Below are positions 1,410 to 54,983 of a stretch of 64,000 nt of DNA, piece after piece; the stretch's first letter is position 1; every line of letters starts with the position of its first letter. The notes beneath the pieces were generated by a model, which saw only the letters and a program-made list of their open reading frames with translations, did not search any database and was not told where the DNA came from. The position numbers were made by a program, and so were the translations under genes. The DNA comes from Kibdelosporangium persicum (GTDB taxonomy: Bacteria; Actinomycetota; Actinomycetes; Mycobacteriales; Pseudonocardiaceae), in NCBI RefSeq assembly GCF_013280595.1, contig NZ_JAAATY010000013.1:1-64000 (forward strand), given 5' to 3'.

Positions 1410-2692
1410 GCCAGCTCCACCTGGTCGAGTTCGGCCCAGCGAGCGCGGTACTGGAAGCGCAGGGTGTTCCAGCCGGGATTGAGTGTCACGTCCAGCCCGG
1501 CTTCGGACCAGTTCTCCCAGCCGGTGTTCGGATAGGTCAACACCAGTTGCGTGCCACCGTTCACTGTCACAGTGTGCTGCGCATCGCCGTAACCAGCGGC
1601 ATATCGGACGTACGCGGTGTAGTTTCCCGCGCCTGGCGCGTAAACGGTGATGTCGACCCAGCTGTCGGCGTAGTCGAGCTTGGCGACGACCGCGTTCTGC
1701 GAAGCGCCCGGTACGCCGGTACGGACCTCCGCGTGGTTGATGGCGCCTCGTTCGGCTTCATACCGGACACGGCTGCCGCGCACGATGGGAAAGTCGTTGG
1801 CCCAACCCAACTCCGCGACGTACATCCACCGCGCGTTGCCGACCCAGCCGTGGAAGAAGATGCGGTTCGGATGCACGTCCGCGCCGCCAGGTCCTTGTAC
1901 CGCGCCGTTGACCGTGGCCGTGGTCATCAACGGCCGGAACGCCTTCGTGTAACCGCCGCGGATCGAGGGCGACACGGCATAGCTCGTGAAGTAGGTGTTC
2001 CCGCCGTACGAGCCGCCTGAGTAGAACAGCACGTACTGCGACGCCCGGCGGACGAGCACAGGTGCCTCGATCACTCCCGCTTCTTCCGGGCGGTCGTTGC
2101 GGATCAGCTCGGTCCGTCCGCCGATGAACGTCACGCCATCCGCCTGAACCTGTTGCAGCCACACGATCGCAGGCCTGCCGACGGCGTTGCCGTCGTTCTT
2201 GTACAACAGGTACCGCGCGCCGTTGGTGTCCACGAAGCTGCTGGGATCGATGTCGCCACCCTCGGCCGCGTCGCACACGAGCGGAGCGCCGCTTGTGGCT
2301 GTGAACGGCCCGGTTGGGCTAGTGGATGTGGCCGCGCCGATGCACATCCGTCCGGTAGCGGTGCTCGGGCCCGTGAAGTACATGAGGAATCGGCCGTCAC
2401 CGCGTCGGGAGACGTCTGGTGCCCAGAAACCGCCGTTCCCGGCCCAGGACGGTCTTATGGGCAGGGCGTCACCGCGCACTGTCCACGGCCCGGACGGCGA
2501 TGGCGCGCTGGCCACCGGCACGCGCCCGGCCCAGCTGCTGGTCGAGTACGCGTAGTACGTGCCGTCGACCTGGAGCACGTCCGGGTCGGGGAAATCCGCG
2601 TTGATCACCGATGCGGGCGGCACCGCCGCGCCGGCAGCACTTCCGCTGACGAGGAGAGAGAGGACAATCGCAGGAACCAGGAGCATGCGCAT
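1406..2692 (-). CDS. Secreted GH43-family glycosidase with C-terminal CBM6/35-like module
   Basis: 428 aa. The start is chosen at 2692 because GGAGG lies 7 nt upstream. A signal peptide (about 1-28) leads into a five-bladed GH43 propeller with the expected acids: NADFPDPDV (base Asp), GGDIDPSSF (pKa-modulating Asp) and GVIEAPVL (acid Glu). From about residue 305 the YEAERGAINHAEV start and the LRFQYRARWAELDQVEL end mark a CBM6/CBM35-type beta-sandwich. GH43 enzymes act on arabinose- or xylose-containing plant glycans; the exact linkage is unknown. First gene of a two-gene unit with the EEP hydrolase. Confidence 0.88.
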   Translation of the reverse strand: MRMLLVPAIVLSLLVSGSAAGAAVPPASVINADFPDPDVLQVDGTYYAYSTSSWAGRVPVASAPSPSGPWTVRGDALPIRPSWAGNGGFWAPDVSRRGDGRFLMYFTGPSTATGRMCIGAATSTSPTGPFTATSGAPLVCDAAEGGDIDPSSFVDTNGARYLLYKNDGNAVGRPAIVWLQQVQADGVTFIGGRTELIRNDRPEEAGVIEAPVLVRRASQYVLFYSGGSYGGNTYFTSYAVSPSIRGGYTKAFRPLMTTATVNGAVQGPGGADVHPNRIFFHGWVGNARWMYVAELGWANDFPIVRGSRVRYEAERGAINHAEVRTGVPGASQNAVVAKLDYADSWVDITVYAPGAGNYTAYVRYAAGYGDAQHTVTVNGGTQLVLTYPNTGWENWSEAGLDVTLNPGWNTLRFQYRARWAELDQVELA

Positions 2693-2708
2693 ACGGCTGC
2701 CTCCAATG

Positions 2709-2723
2709 CAGGGATACTCCCTG
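2709..2723. promoter_or_regulatory. Inverted repeat upstream of the GH43 gene
   Basis: CAGGGA-TAC-TCCCTG is a perfect 6-bp inverted repeat that begins 17 bp upstream of the GH43 start, in the 139-bp gap shared with the divergent membrane-protein gene. It could be an operator. No cognate regulator is adjacent. Confidence 0.35.
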
Positions 2724-2831
2724 TCATACAGCAACCAACTCACGTCCGAAAGTGTCAATCCTTGACCACGTGGTGAACGCTGAAGTGGTGCGCAGTGGTT
2801 TTTCCGCCTGTGCGGGCGGGTAGATCACGAG

Positions 2832-3905
2832 GTGGTGACTGAATCGAACGAAACTTCCCCGCGGTCGGCGGCAGTCGGCCTGCTCGCCGACCCCGGACTG
2901 CCCGCGGTGCTGGCAGACCTGCTGCACGACACGCTGTCCGACCGTCTCCGCGCTGAGGCCAGTGACGCGGTGAAGTGGACTGTGGACACAGTGCACGAGC
3001 CGTTCGAGGCGATGTATCCGGACGACGACCAGCTGATGGGCAAGGCACGCCAACATGTCCGCGACACCGTGTGGGACCTCGTGGTGTGCATCACCGACCA
3101 ACCGATGTGGGACGAGTCGGGCGTTGTCGTCGCCAGCCTGCACACCGACGAACGGGTGGCCGTGGTTTCGTTGCCCGCGCTGGGTGCGTGGGATCTGCGC
3201 CGCCGGTTGGGTGACTTGGTGGTGCGGATCATCGCCTATCTGACCGGATTGTCGTCGCGGTTGCCCGGCGACGTGGTGCACGAATCGCCCTACGTGGACA
3301 TTGTGCGGCCACGCCGGTGGGCCGTGGCGCGACTGCTGACGGGGATGGTCCGGATGAACCGGCCGTGGCAGTTGTTCTGTGGCCTGTCCAGGGCGCTCGC
3401 CGGTGCGCTGACCGGGATGACGTTCGGCGTGCTCTACTCGACGATCTGGACGCTCGGCGCGTCACTGGGGCCGTGGCGGCTGGCCGCGTTGACCACGGTG
3501 GCCGTCGGCGCCTTGACCGTCTGGATCGTCGCCGGGCATGACCTATGGGAACGTCGGCCGCACGTGCGGCTGCGTAATGCGAGTACGGTCGTCACGATCC
3601 TCGTGGGTACGGTCGCGTTCTTCCTGGCCATGTTCCTGATCGCGCTGGCCGCCGTGGCGCTGGTCATCCCGCCCGACTACCTGTCGAACACGCTCGGCCA
3701 CGCGGCCGACGTGTCCGACTATGTGATCGTCGCACTGATGGCGAGCGTGCTCGGCACGATCGCCGGGGCGGTCGGCTCGGGCCTTGAGGACGACGTCACC
3801 GTCCGCGAGGCGACCTACGGCTACCGTGAGCAGCAGCGCCGCCGTCGAGTCGAACGCGAGGCCGAGGACGGCACGACGCCTACCCGCCGGTACCGCCGGA
3901 GTTGA
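2832..3905 (+). CDS. Membrane protein of unknown function
   Basis: 357 aa with a GTG start; a second in-frame GTG follows directly at 2835. The first ~185 residues are soluble and not recognised. Four hydrophobic segments follow at about 190-215, 217-240, 252-280 and 290-312, and the tail is very basic (REQQRRRRVEREAE). It resembles actinobacterial integral membrane proteins without assigned function. It is divergent from GH43, and its 3' end overlaps the 3' end of the convergent glucoamylase gene by 26 bp. Confidence 0.75.
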   Translation: MVTESNETSPRSAAVGLLADPGLPAVLADLLHDTLSDRLRAEASDAVKWTVDTVHEPFEAMYPDDDQLMGKARQHVRDTVWDLVVCITDQPMWDESGVVVASLHTDERVAVVSLPALGAWDLRRRLGDLVVRIIAYLTGLSSRLPGDVVHESPYVDIVRPRRWAVARLLTGMVRMNRPWQLFCGLSRALAGALTGMTFGVLYSTIWTLGASLGPWRLAALTTVAVGALTVWIVAGHDLWERRPHVRLRNASTVVTILVGTVAFFLAMFLIALAAVALVIPPDYLSNTLGHAADVSDYVIVALMASVLGTIAGAVGSGLEDDVTVREATYGYREQQRRRRVEREAEDGTTPTRRYRRS

Positions 3906-6003
3906 GGTATCGGTCGGCGACAACGGCGGGCTGTTCGACGGGTTTGCCCGCGTCGATCGACCACGCCAGCCGGATGTACTGCGCGTGTGTCCACACCAGC
4001 GGTGTCGCGGACGTCGTCGGCGTTCCCGGTCGTTCACCGGGCGGTGCCTGGTGGTCCCATACCTGTTCCGGAAGCATCATGCCGTCGTTGGCGGTGGCCG
4101 CGATGGCGCGCAGCCGGGACTTGGCGGTGTGCGGCTTTCCGGCCAGCAGTTCGTATTCGCCGCGTTCTCCCGCGAAGATCGGCCATAGCCTGCCGTACGT
4201 GCGTTCTCCGCCGATGTCCCACGGGCCGCCGTCGGCGCGTTCGCCGTAGCCGTCGTTGGTGAACCGGTGCCAGAACTGCCCGGTGGGCGTGATCTCGCCC
4301 AGCACCCGGTCGACGACGGCGACGGTGTTGCGGATCGTCGCGTCCTGGGGGGATTTCACACCCAGCCGGACCAGTTCGAGGAAACTCGGGTCTACCTGGG
4401 TTCGCTGATCGACCGTGCCGGGGTAGTTGTCGCCGGGGTTGTACGCGGTGCCTTCGTTGGGCCTGCCGTCCTTGGTGAGCCGGAGGTAGTACGGCTGCGC
4501 TGAATGCGGCCCGTTGCTGGTGACCGTCCACGACTCGACGCGCGCGGCCCAGTCGTCGGCGATGGAGCGGTACCGCTGGGCGGTGGCCGCGTCGCCGGAA
4601 CGCTCGATCATGTCGGCCGCGCACACCAGGCCCGCGATGGTCGCGGCGATCGTGCCGGGGGAGTAGCCGCTCTGGTTCTCCCAGCGTTCCTGCTGGCTCC
4701 ACGGCGCCGAGAACCCGTCCTGCTCGTAGCCGACGATGAAGTCGGCGGCCCGCCGGACCATGGAGATCGTCTTCTCGTCCCGCCGGTCCAGGTGCCACGC
4801 CAGCACAATCGGCAGCGCGGACTCGTCGAGCTGGATGCTCGTCCAATAGGGACGGCCGGAAACGGTGTTGTTCTGCGGGAAGTGGCCGTCCGGTTGCTGC
4901 ACGCCGATGAGGTGGTCGACAGCGCGGTTCGCGGCGTCCCGATCTCCCGCCGCGATCAGCGCGGTCGCGACCTGGTACAGATCCCGCGGCCACACCAGGT
5001 GGTACGGCCCCGGTGTCGGCGACAGTTCCGGATTCGTCCCGAACGCCCACGGCTCGGAGGGGGACGCGATGAACGCGCCGCGGTTGTGTTTGTCCTCACT
5101 CGCCGCGAGAACCAGCAGAGACGAGTCGTAGACGGCCCGCTGGGCGCTGGCCGGGGTCTTCAGGCCACGCAGATACTCCTCCCAGCCCTGGACGTAAGCA
5201 CGGCGGACGTCGTGGAAACGTTGCTGCGCGGACGCTCGGGCGGTCGCGATGGCGCTCTGCTCGTTCTCGCCATAGCCGAGGACCACTACGACGTTCCGGT
5301 CGCGTACGCCGTCGACCGTCAGCTGCCCTGTCTGCCCGAGATTGCCCGGCCCGGCTTGGGGATAACGGGAGGTCAGAGCGCGATGGCGGGACAGGTCGGT
5401 CCATCCGTCGCTCGTACCGAGATAGCCCGAGGAGGTCGCGGAGAAGGGCGGCTGGGCCAGGAGCGCGCTCGCGGCGGACCCGTCGGTGGCGACCAGTGCG
5501 TCACCGACCGATTTTCCCTGGTCGTCGGCGCCTTTGGCGGACAGGGTCGGTTCGTGGAGAACGTAACTGTGCAACGGGCGGTGCGACCGCAGCTCGAAGC
5601 TGACCATCACCGACGGCCGAGCGGGATCGGTGATGTACGTGATCGTCGCCGTCCAGCCGCGTCCCCGCGCGATCCGGCGGTAGGACAGCCGGTCCTGGTC
5701 GGTGCGTACCGGCACGTCGGACACGCGTTGCACGAACGTCTCACCGTCCGTGACCACGAAGTCAAGGCGGCGGGCGGCCGGCGTGGACAGGTCCGGGTGG
5801 AACGTCTCGGTCAGCCCGCCGCGGCCGAGGGTGAACCAGACCGGGCTGCCGGCCGGGCGGGCCGTGCCGAAGCCCTGCTTGTCAGCGGGCGGATAGCCGG
5901 GGTTGACGCCGGGAGCGCCGGGTGGCGTGCCGGTGTCGCCGAGCGCGGGTGGAGCGATCATGATGAACAGACCTGCCAAGGCGGATAACAGCCGACGCCG
6001 CAC
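3880..6003 (-). CDS. Secreted GH15 glucoamylase/glucodextranase-type enzyme
   Basis: 707 aa. The GTG start at 6003 is preceded by GGAGG and gives a signal peptide (RRRLLSALAGLFIM...). The same frame stays open to 7011, but that part is antisense to the oxidoreductase gene and is His/Arg-rich. An N-terminal beta-sandwich (about 30-300) precedes the alpha/alpha-barrel, which carries WPRDLYQVA, the general acid in RWENQSGYSPGTIAA and the general base in LPEQVWD. These match the two glutamates of glucodextranase and bacterial glucoamylase in order and spacing. It should release glucose from starch- or dextran-like alpha-glucans outside the cell. The product likely feeds the neighbouring alpha-glucan gene pair transcribed the other way. 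Confidence 0.9.
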   Translation of the reverse strand: MRRRLLSALAGLFIMIAPPALGDTGTPPGAPGVNPGYPPADKQGFGTARPAGSPVWFTLGRGGLTETFHPDLSTPAARRLDFVVTDGETFVQRVSDVPVRTDQDRLSYRRIARGRGWTATITYITDPARPSVMVSFELRSHRPLHSYVLHEPTLSAKGADDQGKSVGDALVATDGSAASALLAQPPFSATSSGYLGTSDGWTDLSRHRALTSRYPQAGPGNLGQTGQLTVDGVRDRNVVVVLGYGENEQSAIATARASAQQRFHDVRRAYVQGWEEYLRGLKTPASAQRAVYDSSLLVLAASEDKHNRGAFIASPSEPWAFGTNPELSPTPGPYHLVWPRDLYQVATALIAAGDRDAANRAVDHLIGVQQPDGHFPQNNTVSGRPYWTSIQLDESALPIVLAWHLDRRDEKTISMVRRAADFIVGYEQDGFSAPWSQQERWENQSGYSPGTIAATIAGLVCAADMIERSGDAATAQRYRSIADDWAARVESWTVTSNGPHSAQPYYLRLTKDGRPNEGTAYNPGDNYPGTVDQRTQVDPSFLELVRLGVKSPQDATIRNTVAVVDRVLGEITPTGQFWHRFTNDGYGERADGGPWDIGGERTYGRLWPIFAGERGEYELLAGKPHTAKSRLRAIAATANDGMMLPEQVWDHQAPPGERPGTPTTSATPLVWTHAQYIRLAWSIDAGKPVEQPAVVADRYLNSGGTGG

Positions 6004-48817: not shown

Positions 48818-51112
48818 TCAGCTCGTGCGCAGGCAGGTGATCCAGTAGTCGCCGTTGGTGTCCCTGGTGACTCCGTGGGTCTCGCTCGGGAAGCCGGGGA
48901 AGTGCCGGTCGAAGTCCTCGAGAGCTCGCAGGTACCGCAACGTCGGCTCGTCGTGTTTCCCGGCGTTCTCGCCGGGCATGAGCACTGGGATGCCGGGTGG
49001 CGTGGTGACGACCTGGGTGGCCACTGTGCGGCCGGCGAGTTCGCCGAGACGGACGGGCTCGGTCCCGCCTCGCAGGAGCCGTTGGTAGGTCTGTGCGGGC
49101 GTCAGTTCAGGGCGAGGTGGATGCGTGAACGCGTCGTCCAGCAACGGGATCAGGTTGCTGGCACACAGGTGGGCGTGCATCTGGTCGCACAGATCGCGCA
49201 ACGTGAGACCGCGGTACCGGTCGGGATGCTGTTTCACCAGGTCGGGGAGGACCGCGACGAGCGGAGTGGCCGCGTCGTAGAGGGCCTTGAAGTCGAGCAG
49301 CGCGTCGATCAGGGTGCCCCACTTGCCCTTCGTGATGCCCATCGAGAACAGGATCAGGCAGGTGTAGGCGTCGGTCTTCTCCACGACGATCCGCCTGGTC
49401 TCCAGGTAGGCCGTGAGAATCCTGGCCGGGATGCCCATCTCGGCCCGCGTGCCCTGCGCGTCGGTGCCCGGGCACGTGACGCTGACCTTGATCGGGTCCA
49501 GCATGCAGTAGCCGGACTCCATGCCCGGGAAGCCGTGCCAGTCCGCGCCGGGCTCCAGCGTCCAGCAGGACGGCTCGGTCCGCAGCAGGTCCAGTGGGGC
49601 GTCCGCGAAACAGTAGCGCTCGCCGTCGCGCGGGTCGGTGACCGAGTCGGGTTGCCACGTGCCGAAGAACCACGGTGGACGGTCTCCGGCGGCGGCGATC
49701 CGCCTGCCGATGCGAGCCAGGGACTGGCGGAAGCGGATCGCCTCGGTGATCGCCTCGTCGGTGAGCCACTCACCGCCCGCGCCGTCCATCATGCCCGCCG
49801 CCACGTCGAGCCCGGCGATCATCGGGTACATCGGCGACGTGGTGGCGTGCATCATGAACGTCTCGTTGAACTGGTGGTGGTCCACTGGCGACCGCGGCGA
49901 GTTCTTCACGTGCAGCATGGCGCTCTGGGAGATCGCGGCGAGCAACTTGTGCGTCGACTGCGTCGTCAGGACCGTGGGCCGGATGTCATCAGGCACCGCG
50001 TCCGCGTCCACGGACATGCCGTACCGGCGTGCGTAGAGCGGGTGGAACCGGGCGTAGGCGAACCACGCCTCGTCCAGGTGCATCCGCGGCACGTTCGGTC
50101 CCAACAGCTCGGCCAGACGTACGGCGTCGTAACAGAGGCCGTCGTACGTGGAGTTGGTGATCACCGCGTACACAGGGGACGAGCCGGTGCCGAGCGGGCT
50201 TCGCCGCAGCTCGTCGTCGACGGCCTCGCCGGCCATCGCGGCCGGCGGGATGGGCCCCATGAGCCCGTAACCGTTGCGGGTCGGCACAAGGTAGACCGGG
50301 CGGCCGCCGGTCAGGGTCAGGCCGTGGTAGATCGCCTTGTGGCAGTTGCGGTCGACCAGCACCAGTTCGTCGGTGGCGATGCTGGCGTGCAGGGCGAGCC
50401 GGTCGGCTGTGGAGTCGCCGTGCAGCACGAAGTACGTCAGGTCCGCGCCGAAGATCCGGGCCGCGTTGCTTTCCGCGTCGCCGATCGGTCCGGTGTGCTC
50501 GAACAGCGACCCCAGTTCCGCCACCGAGATCGACAGGTCGGTGCGGAACAGCCGTTCGCCGTAGTAGTCGAACAACGCCCGTCCGACGGGTGACTTCAGG
50601 AACGCCACCCCGCCCGCGTGTGCCGGAGTGTGCCAGGAGTACTCGTGCGTGTCGTCGAAGCGGCGCAGTTCGCGGAAGAAGGGCGGCAGCAGCTCGTCCT
50701 GGTAGCGTCGCGCGGCCACGCCGATCCGGCCGGCGATGAAGTCGGGGGTGTCCTCCAGCAGCCACACGTACCCGCACACCACTTGGGACACCCACAGCGG
50801 CAGGTCGTCGACGGCCGTCGCGGTGGTCACCAGGAACACCGGAAGCCGCGTGAACCGGCCCAGCAACGCCTTCAGGACCGCCTCGGCCGGTCGCTGCACG
50901 ACGCCTTCGTCGTCGTGCAGGTCCCAGCTCACCAGCGCGGCGGTCAGGTCCGCGCGGCTTTGCACAAGCGCCAGCGCGTCGTCGTCGGTGCCCGCCCGTA
51001 CGACGTCGTGGCCGTCCTCGGTCAGGTGTCTGCAGATCCGCTCCAGCTGGTCCGCCATCACGGTTCGATTGGTGATGTCGTTGAGTGCCAAGAGGATCGT
51101 CGAGCCGGGCAT
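48818..51112 (-). CDS. Orn/Lys/Arg decarboxylase (AdiA/LdcC-like)
   Basis: 764 aa with GGGGGA upstream of the ATG. N-terminal receiver-like wing domain (about 1-125), then the fold-type I PLP domain with VLTTQSTHKLLAAISQSAMLH (the PLP Lys) and DEAWFAYARFHPLY, and the C-terminal domain. It is full length for the inducible biodegradative amino-acid decarboxylases. It would make agmatine from arginine, cadaverine from lysine or putrescine from ornithine; which one is not decidable. It is divergent from the guanidine hydrolase-like gene; the 216-bp spacer from its start to the riboswitch holds a TATATA (51159-51154) that could be its -10 box. Confidence 0.9.
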   Translation of the reverse strand: MPGSTILLALNDITNRTVMADQLERICRHLTEDGHDVVRAGTDDDALALVQSRADLTAALVSWDLHDDEGVVQRPAEAVLKALLGRFTRLPVFLVTTATAVDDLPLWVSQVVCGYVWLLEDTPDFIAGRIGVAARRYQDELLPPFFRELRRFDDTHEYSWHTPAHAGGVAFLKSPVGRALFDYYGERLFRTDLSISVAELGSLFEHTGPIGDAESNAARIFGADLTYFVLHGDSTADRLALHASIATDELVLVDRNCHKAIYHGLTLTGGRPVYLVPTRNGYGLMGPIPPAAMAGEAVDDELRRSPLGTGSSPVYAVITNSTYDGLCYDAVRLAELLGPNVPRMHLDEAWFAYARFHPLYARRYGMSVDADAVPDDIRPTVLTTQSTHKLLAAISQSAMLHVKNSPRSPVDHHQFNETFMMHATTSPMYPMIAGLDVAAGMMDGAGGEWLTDEAITEAIRFRQSLARIGRRIAAAGDRPPWFFGTWQPDSVTDPRDGERYCFADAPLDLLRTEPSCWTLEPGADWHGFPGMESGYCMLDPIKVSVTCPGTDAQGTRAEMGIPARILTAYLETRRIVVEKTDAYTCLILFSMGITKGKWGTLIDALLDFKALYDAATPLVAVLPDLVKQHPDRYRGLTLRDLCDQMHAHLCASNLIPLLDDAFTHPPRPELTPAQTYQRLLRGGTEPVRLGELAGRTVATQVVTTPPGIPVLMPGENAGKHDEPTLRYLRALEDFDRHFPGFPSETHGVTRDTNGDYWITCLRTS

Positions 51113-51234: not shown

Positions 51235-51276
51235 CGTGAGTGTTTATCAGGGTTAGAACACCGATAAACGCTCACG
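51235..51276. repeat. Dispersed palindromic element, copy 3
   Basis: The third copy of the palindromic family (arms CGTGAGTGTTTATC and GATAAACGCTCACG; inner GGGTT facing AACAC), less perfect than the other two. It lies between the decarboxylase gene and the guanidine riboswitch, in a C-rich flank. Confidence 0.8.
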
Positions 51277-51328
51277 AAGCGTGGCCAGGTGAAATAGACT
51301 TGTGACCGACTCACCGAGGGTGAGGCGC

Positions 51329-51423
51329 GTCTAGGGTTCCGTTCCGCACGCGGGAGTCTGGTCCGAGGGACGCAGGCGGCAGTGCGGATGCCGTCCCACG
51401 GCGGGACAAAAGCCCGGGAGACA
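51329..51423 (+). ncRNA. Guanidine-I (ykkC-yxkD) riboswitch
   Basis: The diagnostic blocks of the ykkC class appear in order: CTAGGGTTCCG (51331-51341), TCTGGTCCGAGGGACG (51357-51372) and CACGGCGGGACAAAAGCCCG to GGGAGA (51398-51421). The last block reproduces the conserved 3' domain with the ACGG and GGGACAAAAGCCCGGG elements. The class binds free guanidinium and turns on guanidine-export or -breakdown genes. An alternative hairpin pairs GGGAGACAGCTG (51417-51428) with CGGCTGTTTCCC (51435-51446) and could be the expression platform. The regulated gene starts at 51475. Confidence 0.93.
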
Positions 51424-51474
51424 GCTGGTGGTGTCGGCTGTTTCCCGCCGGTGCCCGACTGTGGAGGAACGGAC

Positions 51475-52668
51475 GTGCACTACAACCCCAACCGCCCCGG
51501 CCATACCCCGGACGGCGAGCCGATCGACCCGGTCCAGGCCGAACAGGACGCCAAGCAGTTGCACGGCAACTACGGGCCCGAGGCCGCCTACGCCGTCGAC
51601 GCCGAGGCCAAGCTGCCCACCACGAAGTACGAGGAAGAGATCGCCCGCGGCCTCGAGCTGGGCCTGCCGGGCGCGGACTCGATCGTGGACCGCACCATCC
51701 CGACGTTCTCCCGCGGCGAGTTGCCGCACTTCGCGGGCATCAACACGTTCCTCAAGGCACCCTACGTGGAGGACGTCCGGCGCTGCGGCGAGTACGACGT
51801 CGCGGTGCTCGGCGTCCCGTTCGACGGCGGCACGACCTACCGGTCCGGCACCCGGTTCGGTCCGCAGGGCATCCGCAAGATCTCCGCGCTGTACGGGCCG
51901 TACTCCTTCGAGCTGGGCGTCGACCTGCGGGAGTCCATCACCATCGCCGACCTCGGCGACGTCTTCACCATCCCCGGCAACATCGAGAAGTGCTTCGACC
52001 AGATCACCAAGGCGGTCTCGCACGTCTACGAGTCCGGCGCGTTCCCGGTGGTCCTCGGCGGGGACCACTCGATCGGCTACCCGACGACCCGCGGGGTCGC
52101 GCCGCACCTGAACGGCGGGAACCTGGGGATCATCCACTTCGACCGGCACGTCGACACCCAGGAGACGGACCTCGACGAGCGGATGCACACCACTCCGTGG
52201 TTCCACGCCACGGACATCCCGAACGTGCCGCCGAAGAACCTGGTGCAGATCGGCATCGGTGGCTGGCAGGCGCCGCGGCCGGGCGTGAAGGTCGGCCGGG
52301 AGCGCGGCACGACGATCATGACGGTGACCGACTGCGTGGAGATGGGCATCGAAGCCGCCGCGCAGAAGGCGTTGGACGTCGCGTGGGACGGCGCCGACGC
52401 CGTGTGGCTCAGCTTCGACGTCGACTGTCTCGACGCGGCGTTCGTGCCGGGCACCGGCTGGCCGGAGCCGGGCGGGTTCCTGCCCCGTGAGGTGCTGAAG
52501 TTCATCCAGATCATCGCCGACGCCCGTCCGCTCGCCGGGATCGAGGTCGTCGAGTGCGCCCCGCCGTACGACAACGCCGAGATCACGGCACTGATGGCCA
52601 CCCGGGTCATCTGCGACACGCTCGGGTGCCTCGTGCGGTCGGGGCACCTCCCGAAGCGCAAGTCCTGA
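51475..52668 (+). CDS. gdmH: Guanidine hydrolase, agmatinase/ureohydrolase family (GdmH-like)
   Basis: 397 aa from the GTG at 51475, preceded by GGAGGAACGG. It carries the ureohydrolase metal motifs, but altered: LGGDHSIG, HFDRHVDTQETD (canonical agmatinases have FDAHxD) and SFDVDCLDAAFVPGTGWPEP (canonical GTGTPxP). About 85 N-terminal residues precede the usual SpeB fold, close to the length of the Ni-dependent guanidine hydrolase of Synechocystis (about 390 aa). The guanidine riboswitch directly upstream supports guanidine to urea plus ammonia rather than agmatine hydrolysis. The HypA/HypB-like nickel factors reported for GdmH are not in the window. It would read as agmatinase (speB) by similarity alone. 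It converges on the kinase gene with a 4-bp gap. Confidence 0.83.
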   Translation: MHYNPNRPGHTPDGEPIDPVQAEQDAKQLHGNYGPEAAYAVDAEAKLPTTKYEEEIARGLELGLPGADSIVDRTIPTFSRGELPHFAGINTFLKAPYVEDVRRCGEYDVAVLGVPFDGGTTYRSGTRFGPQGIRKISALYGPYSFELGVDLRESITIADLGDVFTIPGNIEKCFDQITKAVSHVYESGAFPVVLGGDHSIGYPTTRGVAPHLNGGNLGIIHFDRHVDTQETDLDERMHTTPWFHATDIPNVPPKNLVQIGIGGWQAPRPGVKVGRERGTTIMTVTDCVEMGIEAAAQKALDVAWDGADAVWLSFDVDCLDAAFVPGTGWPEPGGFLPREVLKFIQIIADARPLAGIEVVECAPPYDNAEITALMATRVICDTLGCLVRSGHLPKRKS

Positions 52669-54497: not shown

Positions 54498-54983
54498 ATG
54501 CAGACGTTTCTCCCGTATCCGGGCTTCCGCGCCACCGCGGCCGTGCTGGATCCACGACGGCTCGGCAAGCAGCGCGTCGAGACGATCCAGGTGCTCAGAG
54601 CGCTGACGATCCCGGGCTACGGGTGGCGCCACCACCCCGCGGCAGCCATGTGGGCGGGCTACGAGGAGGCCCTGACCCGATACGGTATCGACATCTGCGA
54701 AGTCTGGTGCGAGACGGGACGCCAGGACACCTGCCAGGCGACCCTCCGTACGGACCTGTACGCCGCGACTGGGCTGGAACAGGTGCGTGACCAGGCGGAA
54801 CTGGCCGAGGCCGAGGAGTTGCCGCCGTGGCTTGGCGACCCTCTGTTCCACGACAGCCACCAGTCCGCGCTGGTCCGCAAGGACCCCGCGTTCTACCGCC
54901 CGCACTTTCCCGCCGTGCCCGACGACCTGCCGTACGTGTGGCCCTCGTCGGACCGGCCGCGGCGGGCGGCTCAGCGGTCGTAG
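54498..54983 (+). CDS. Pyr_excise-type protein (pyrimidine dimer DNA glycosylase-like, MSMEG_6728 family)
   Basis: 161 aa. It matches the MSMEG_6728 group: MQTFLPYPGFRATAAVLDPRRLGKQRVETIQVLRAL, HHPAAAMWAGYEEAL and the ending LPYVWPSS. Distant similarity to T4 endonuclease V-type glycosylases suggests DNA repair of UV damage, but that has not been shown for this group. Its start is 43 bp from the divergent kinase gene, and its 3' end overlaps the convergent DUF6069-like gene by 13 bp. Confidence 0.85.
   Translation: MQTFLPYPGFRATAAVLDPRRLGKQRVETIQVLRALTIPGYGWRHHPAAAMWAGYEEALTRYGIDICEVWCETGRQDTCQATLRTDLYAATGLEQVRDQAELAEAEELPPWLGDPLFHDSHQSALVRKDPAFYRPHFPAVPDDLPYVWPSSDRPRRAAQRS

Follow-up and report, generated by a model that had tools for sequence, protein, structure and literature searches.

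GdmH/Sll1077 of Synechocystis is the subject of Wang et al. (2021) and Funck et al. (2022). Guanidine hydrolysis by Synechocystis GdmH and by the N. inopinata guanidinase has been shown by others (PMC8390497; PMC11410670). The comammox paper (Nature 2024) supplied the N. inopinata guanidinase together with its structure (9FEK); it describes riboswitch control, the gene order riboswitch, APC permease and gdmH, and no adjoining nickel chaperone genes, and it reports guanidine-I as a transcriptional ON switch (PMC11410670). In Synechocystis PCC 6803, an upstream guanidine-I riboswitch is likewise described for gdmH (7OI1, 7ESR), which shares its operon with hypA/hypB-like genes and an ABC transporter (PMC8390497). 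Wang et al. (2021) concluded that Sll1077 is probably a guanidinase rather than the agmatinase of its annotation; they also pointed to riboswitch-controlled 'agmatinase'/arginase genes in very diverse microbes, frequently accompanied by hypA, hypB and ABC genes (PMC8390497). Riboswitch-controlled guanidinases annotated as agmatinases are already published, and the locus described here is a new example of this known pair. A full-text literature search, with subscription journals and supplements outside its scope, returned no study of an actinomycete guanidinase and, within the same scope, no literature on a guanidine riboswitch in Pseudonocardia; the supplementary lists of the guanidinase papers may name actinomycete genes of this type.

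The locus lies in a stretch of 64,000 nucleotides from Kibdelosporangium persicum, the whole of which is referred to as the window. In contrast to N. inopinata, gdmH directly follows the riboswitch and adjoins no APC permease, and unlike the Synechocystis gene it has neither hypA/hypB-like genes nor an ABC transporter beside it. The following features were assigned:

48821-51112, minus strand: Orn/Lys/Arg decarboxylase, upstream and divergent (NCBIfam/Pfam matches)
51320-51422, plus strand: guanidine-I (ykkC) riboswitch aptamer, RF00442 (cmscan, full length)
51412-51452, plus strand: predicted hairpin that takes the aptamer 3' end and competes with the aptamer fold, with no T-run after it (strand folding)
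51463-51467, plus strand: Shine-Dalgarno-like GGAGG (sequence)
51475-52668, plus strand: gdmH-type guanidine hydrolase (guanidinase) of the ureohydrolase superfamily, 397 aa (PF00491, structure matches, residues, tree)
downstream of gdmH, convergent: protein kinase with a DUF3558 match (profile matches)

A cmscan search of the whole window returned RF00442 as the single Rfam match above gathering score (80.8 bits against a threshold of 63, E 8.4e-13, model positions 1-107). The ykkC/guanidine-I element claimed in the preliminary description was thus recovered by the covariance search suggested there, although its 5' boundary had to be moved, as the match begins 9 bases before the start originally assigned. 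No second guanidine-I element was found elsewhere in the 10.35 Mb host genome (150 of 298 candidates scored), and no guanidine-III element among the 150 of 4985 candidates that were scored. Whole-genome searches of 50 gdmH-bearing genomes detected RF00442 in 43, in 37 of them above cut-off, and the aptamer 3'-end pattern occurred within about 450 bases upstream of gdmH in 45 of 57 non-Nitrospira sequences, the window included. More than one guanidine-I match was present in nine of the 50 genomes (those of L012 and L018 among them); in Kutzneria sp. 744 and in Dactylosporangium fulvum, for example, the second match is below cut-off and far from gdmH. In the interval between decarboxylase and riboswitch, an imperfect palindrome (CGTGAGTGTTTATC, 14 bases, GATAAACGCTCACG; 51235-51276) was found by eye; it is absent from the list of the repeat finder (9-base seed) and might represent an operator.

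The gene opens with a GTG start at 51475, 52 bases downstream of the aptamer end at 51422 and with the GGAGG motif in between, and its intact frame of 397 codons runs to a stop ending at 52668, in line with the ureohydrolase gene 52 bp behind the riboswitch that had been noted before. PF00491 (arginase domain) was the only Pfam match of the protein (264 bits) and begins at residue 108, while the alignment to proclavaminate amidinohydrolase begins at residue 84; both agree with the N-terminal extension pointed out earlier, a trait shared with the N. inopinata guanidinase. The best matches among solved structures were 9FEK (743 bits) and 7ESR/7OI1 (564 bits), followed by proclavaminate amidinohydrolase as the next chain (178 bits). 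Identity amounted to 84.5% with the N. inopinata guanidinase (311 of 368 aligned residues) and 65.7% with Synechocystis GdmH (236 of 359), compared with 32-36% for guanidinobutyrase, guanidinopropionase and proclavaminate amidinohydrolase. Agmatinases such as SpeB belong to the same superfamily, PF00491, but the protein scored below the curated cut-offs of both agmatinase models (TIGR01230, 164.3 bits against 174.3; PRK02190, 212.1 against 302).

The active-site motifs that had been read as deviating from agmatinase, FDRHVD (from residue 222) and GTGWPEP (from residue 326), are indeed present, and 9FEK and 7ESR/7OI1, the characterised guanidinases, carry both in identical form. All ten published metal and specificity residues were found. 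The six Ni/Mn ligands H198, D223, H225, D227, D315 and D317 correspond to H182, D207, H209, D211, D299 and D301 of the N. inopinata enzyme, and Thr121, His238, Trp329 and Glu360 are the four residues linked to guanidine hydrolysis. Three of the latter (Thr121, His238 and Trp329) match the guanidinase rule of the comammox paper, namely Thr105, His222 and Trp313 in N. inopinata numbering (PMC11410670); the Thr/Trp signature is also shared with Synechocystis GdmH. Proclavaminate amidinohydrolase, guanidinobutyrase and guanidinopropionase carry Thr at the guanidinase Trp position, and guanidinopropionase has the guanidinase Thr in common, but without the Trp; the comparison of Trp329 refers to these three non-guanidinase ureohydrolases, SpeB not being aligned by residue. 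The ten key residues were common to all 82 gdmH proteins of relatives that were retained from 84 examined (L044 and L086 were dropped because of stops within the aligned stretch; three identical pairs remain among the 82). In a phylogeny, the kind of check also suggested at the outset, the 82 sequences, the window protein and the two characterised guanidinases formed one 85-row branch with 100/100 support, in a tree of 90 rows with just five outgroup rows on very long branches and bootstrap values that had not fully settled. Inside this guanidinase branch, the window protein grouped with Pseudonocardia pini and one other member of the family (100/88), and its end branch was short (0.036).

Identity to an assayed guanidinase, the Thr/His/Trp rule, the agmatinase scores below cut-off, the riboswitch and the urease cluster of the host (see below) agree with the initial proposal of a guanidine hydrolase rather than an agmatinase. 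Judged from the sequence, the locus is very probably a one-gene guanidine-degradation unit, made up of a guanidine-I riboswitch and a GdmH-type guanidine hydrolase. The riboswitch in the 5' leader would sense free guanidinium and turn on gdmH; when no guanidine is present, the hairpin at 51412-51452 would capture the aptamer 3' end. The GdmH-type enzyme, probably nickel-dependent, would split guanidine into urea and ammonia, and the host urease would split the urea, so that one guanidine could give three ammonia. From these comparisons we infer guanidine binding, the ON direction, guanidine hydrolysis, nickel use and a growth benefit, and the host may use nitrogen from free guanidine. The window suggests that one more actinomycete uses guanidine. 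As had been cautioned, annotation at superfamily level would label this gdmH an agmatinase, a mislabelling already published for other guanidinases.

The window aptamer resembles the guanidine-I class in its full-length covariance match above gathering score, but differs in that no intrinsic terminator was detected and the competing hairpin is not followed by a T-run. In predicted folds, the hairpin at 51412-51452 includes the final 11 bases of the aptamer match. A fold of 51396-51490 further predicted that, with the aptamer unformed, its CCACGG (51396-51401) pairs with CUGUGG (51459-51464), which overlaps the GGAGG. Because no terminator-like site was found downstream of the window aptamer and because this CCACGG/CUGUGG pairing lies over the ribosome site, the switch may act either through a terminator without T-run or by masking of the translation start. 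Among 41 homologous leaders, 33 showed more downstream pairing of the aptamer 3' end than the average for their shuffled versions (mean rank 0.32, Wilcoxon p 0.0002), a group result for related sequences, eight of which show the opposite direction. For the window leader alone the signal was weak, 7 of 100 shuffles pairing equally well or better. The alignment covered 41 of 45 leaders and left out L016, L021 and L022, which have longer spacers, and L089, whose sequence is the same as that of L023. In L073, a hairpin at the equivalent position is followed by TTTTT, like a classical terminator; this arrangement fits an ON switch acting by antitermination.

The genomic surroundings of gdmH were surveyed by tblastn (E 1e-25) in 57 non-Nitrospira sequences, including the window, with about 6 kb of flanking sequence at most and less where a contig ended. 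An ABC transporter permease was found near gdmH in 34 of these, an APC permease in nine, a sodium:solute symporter in five and urease alpha in ten (before the gene in five, after it in five), some sequences having two of them. Overall, 51 of 57 had urease or a transporter of at least one of these types nearby; the window is one of the remaining six, with none of the four nearby. An APC permease also occurs in 24 of 28 Nitrospira-type loci. In the nearest relatives (L007, L088), a symporter (Pfam SSF) begins about 50 bases past the gdmH match; no close homologue of this SSS symporter was found in the host genome (best E 1.5e-4, 30% identity). An APC protein near the host urease genes is 24-27% identical to gdmH-linked APC proteins.

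At E 1e-60, gdmH was found in five of 60 genomes searched, the host's own included, and in none of the seven congeners among those searched. It is thus an accessory trait, since all seven congeners lacked a match. Over the stretch aligned, the gdmH of one Pseudonocardiaceae genome (G014) does not differ from that of Lentzea aerocolonigenes. Genes about 60-65% identical to gdmH also turned up in a plasmid collection (11 records matched; H9-H18 from Sinorhizobium fredii, Rubrobacter and others), labelled 'agmatinase family protein' where named.

The host genome contains a urease alpha gene, and the adjoining UreG scored 264.3 bits against a curated cut-off of 204.2 and 225.6 bits to a solved UreG. 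Further frames in this cluster on contig C31 were tentatively taken for UreF and UreD from their position and appearance alone. With urease and UreG in the genome, urea from guanidine can therefore be used. HypA gave no match in the whole host genome, and no cobW/HypB-family protein was found on the window's contig, C13 (150 of 178 candidates scored), which bears out the earlier remark that HypA/HypB-like nickel factors are not nearby. The host-wide search for the cobW/HypB family gave two strong matches, UreG (C31) and a CobW/ZigA-like protein (C15), both far under the cut-off of the HypB model, and four weaker ones. No hypA/hypB-like loader of the Synechocystis type thus emerged from these searches, either in the operon or, among the strong cobW-family matches, in the genome. 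Among the 50 gdmH-bearing genomes, HypA (PF01155) was above cut-off in 27 and not in 23, eight of the latter being titled MAG and 15 not. For the N. inopinata guanidinase, the comammox paper describes nickel loading as unclear, with no chaperone found (PMC11410670), and the gdmH hosts that lack HypA bear on this question. That actinomycete guanidinases obtain nickel without HypA/HypB-type loaders, either by way of UreG, the GTPase of urease maturation, or without help, is a tentative and rather unlikely proposal; if true, the clustering of gdmH with urease in several lineages would stem from a common nickel supply in addition to the common urea. The relatives constitute a testable set, in which the same enzyme is combined with a transporter (SSS, APC or ABC) or with urease, in genomes that do or do not contain HypA.

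The divergent decarboxylase could suggest that the gene encodes an agmatinase acting with it in a route from arginine via agmatine to putrescine. Among NCBIfam models, the neighbour is closest to arginine/lysine decarboxylases; its best match, arginine decarboxylase PRK15029, reached 782 bits and is below the cut-off of 1167. A search of the host genome for agmatine deiminase gave no match, and the three other ureohydrolase homologues of the host, 22-29% identical to the window protein, have arginase as top model, far below every cut-off, with none reaching that of agmatinase. The divergent decarboxylase, the lack of an agmatinase-grade ureohydrolase and the missing deiminase therefore leave room for a role in agmatine metabolism, and very minor agmatine activity is reported for the N. 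inopinata guanidinase (PMC11410670). Against this stand the two agmatinase model scores given above and the Trp at a position where the three other ureohydrolases compared carry Thr. The decarboxylase is moreover not a conserved partner of gdmH: neither the 80 gdmH loci, with flanks of 6 kb at most and less where a contig ended, nor the short stretches beside gdmH in L088-L091 contained a match, and the decarboxylase gene lies outside the riboswitch transcript. Of eight genomes of the genus, the host's included, one congener has a close relative of the decarboxylase gene, read with one internal TGA, but that genome yielded no gdmH match, and neither gdmH nor the kinase was matched within 5.3 kb around the gene. 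On account of the family scores, the residues and the missing conservation of the divergent decarboxylase, the agmatine pathway with this neighbour was rejected, and we regard it as highly improbable.

Equally improbable in our view is that the enzyme acts mainly on some other small guanidino compound, such as methylguanidine or guanylurea, with guanidine being a side activity or a signal only. The authors of the comammox paper raise this alternative themselves, and the guanidine Km of their enzyme is high (13.6 mM; PMC11410670). A riboswitch-led gene run in L040, described below, combines gdmH with a Rieske oxygenase and a second ureohydrolase without the Thr/Trp pair. However, the same paper reports that the enzyme, which is 84.5% identical to the window protein, yields no urea from methylguanidine (in one place printed 'methylguanine'), arginine, creatine, guanidinobutyrate or guanidinopropionate (PMC11410670), and both proteins carry the same ten key residues. 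The locus could also be a remnant, decayed or silent, that arrived without uptake or nickel factors and has fallen out of use; this would be compatible with the family assignment. Such a remnant is favoured by the isolated position of the gene, by the genome having no close SSS homologue and no HypA match, and by the seven congeners searched having no gdmH match; the last three points, together with no neighbouring transporter of the three types, also count against an active guanidine-degradation unit. The intact open frame, the complete set of key residues, the full-length aptamer above gathering score and the short end branch within a well-supported group argue against decay, which we consider very unlikely.

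Two related loci showed further arrangements around the guanidine-I riboswitch and gdmH. In L091 (1131-1452), an order-level relative, a guanidine-III riboswitch lies directly 5' of a 66% identical gdmH, and a guanidine-I riboswitch in opposite orientation faces an APC permease, so that two switch classes stand back to back in one pathway. In L040 (1282-5850), a guanidine-I riboswitch (82.4 bits) heads a series of tightly packed genes. The first encodes a ureohydrolase in which Val/Ser replace the guanidinase Thr/Trp (1471-2583); genes for a Rieske oxygenase (2580-3818) and a protein of the metallo-beta-lactamase superfamily (3815-4627) follow, and gdmH (4720-5850) comes last. The run could serve to strip a substituent off a guanidine and pass the product on to GdmH; the literature search found no title on such an arrangement of a guanidine riboswitch with a Rieske oxygenase. 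Within the window itself, positions 54498-54980 encode an MSMEG_6728-family protein with a match to a pyrimidine dimer DNA glycosylase domain.
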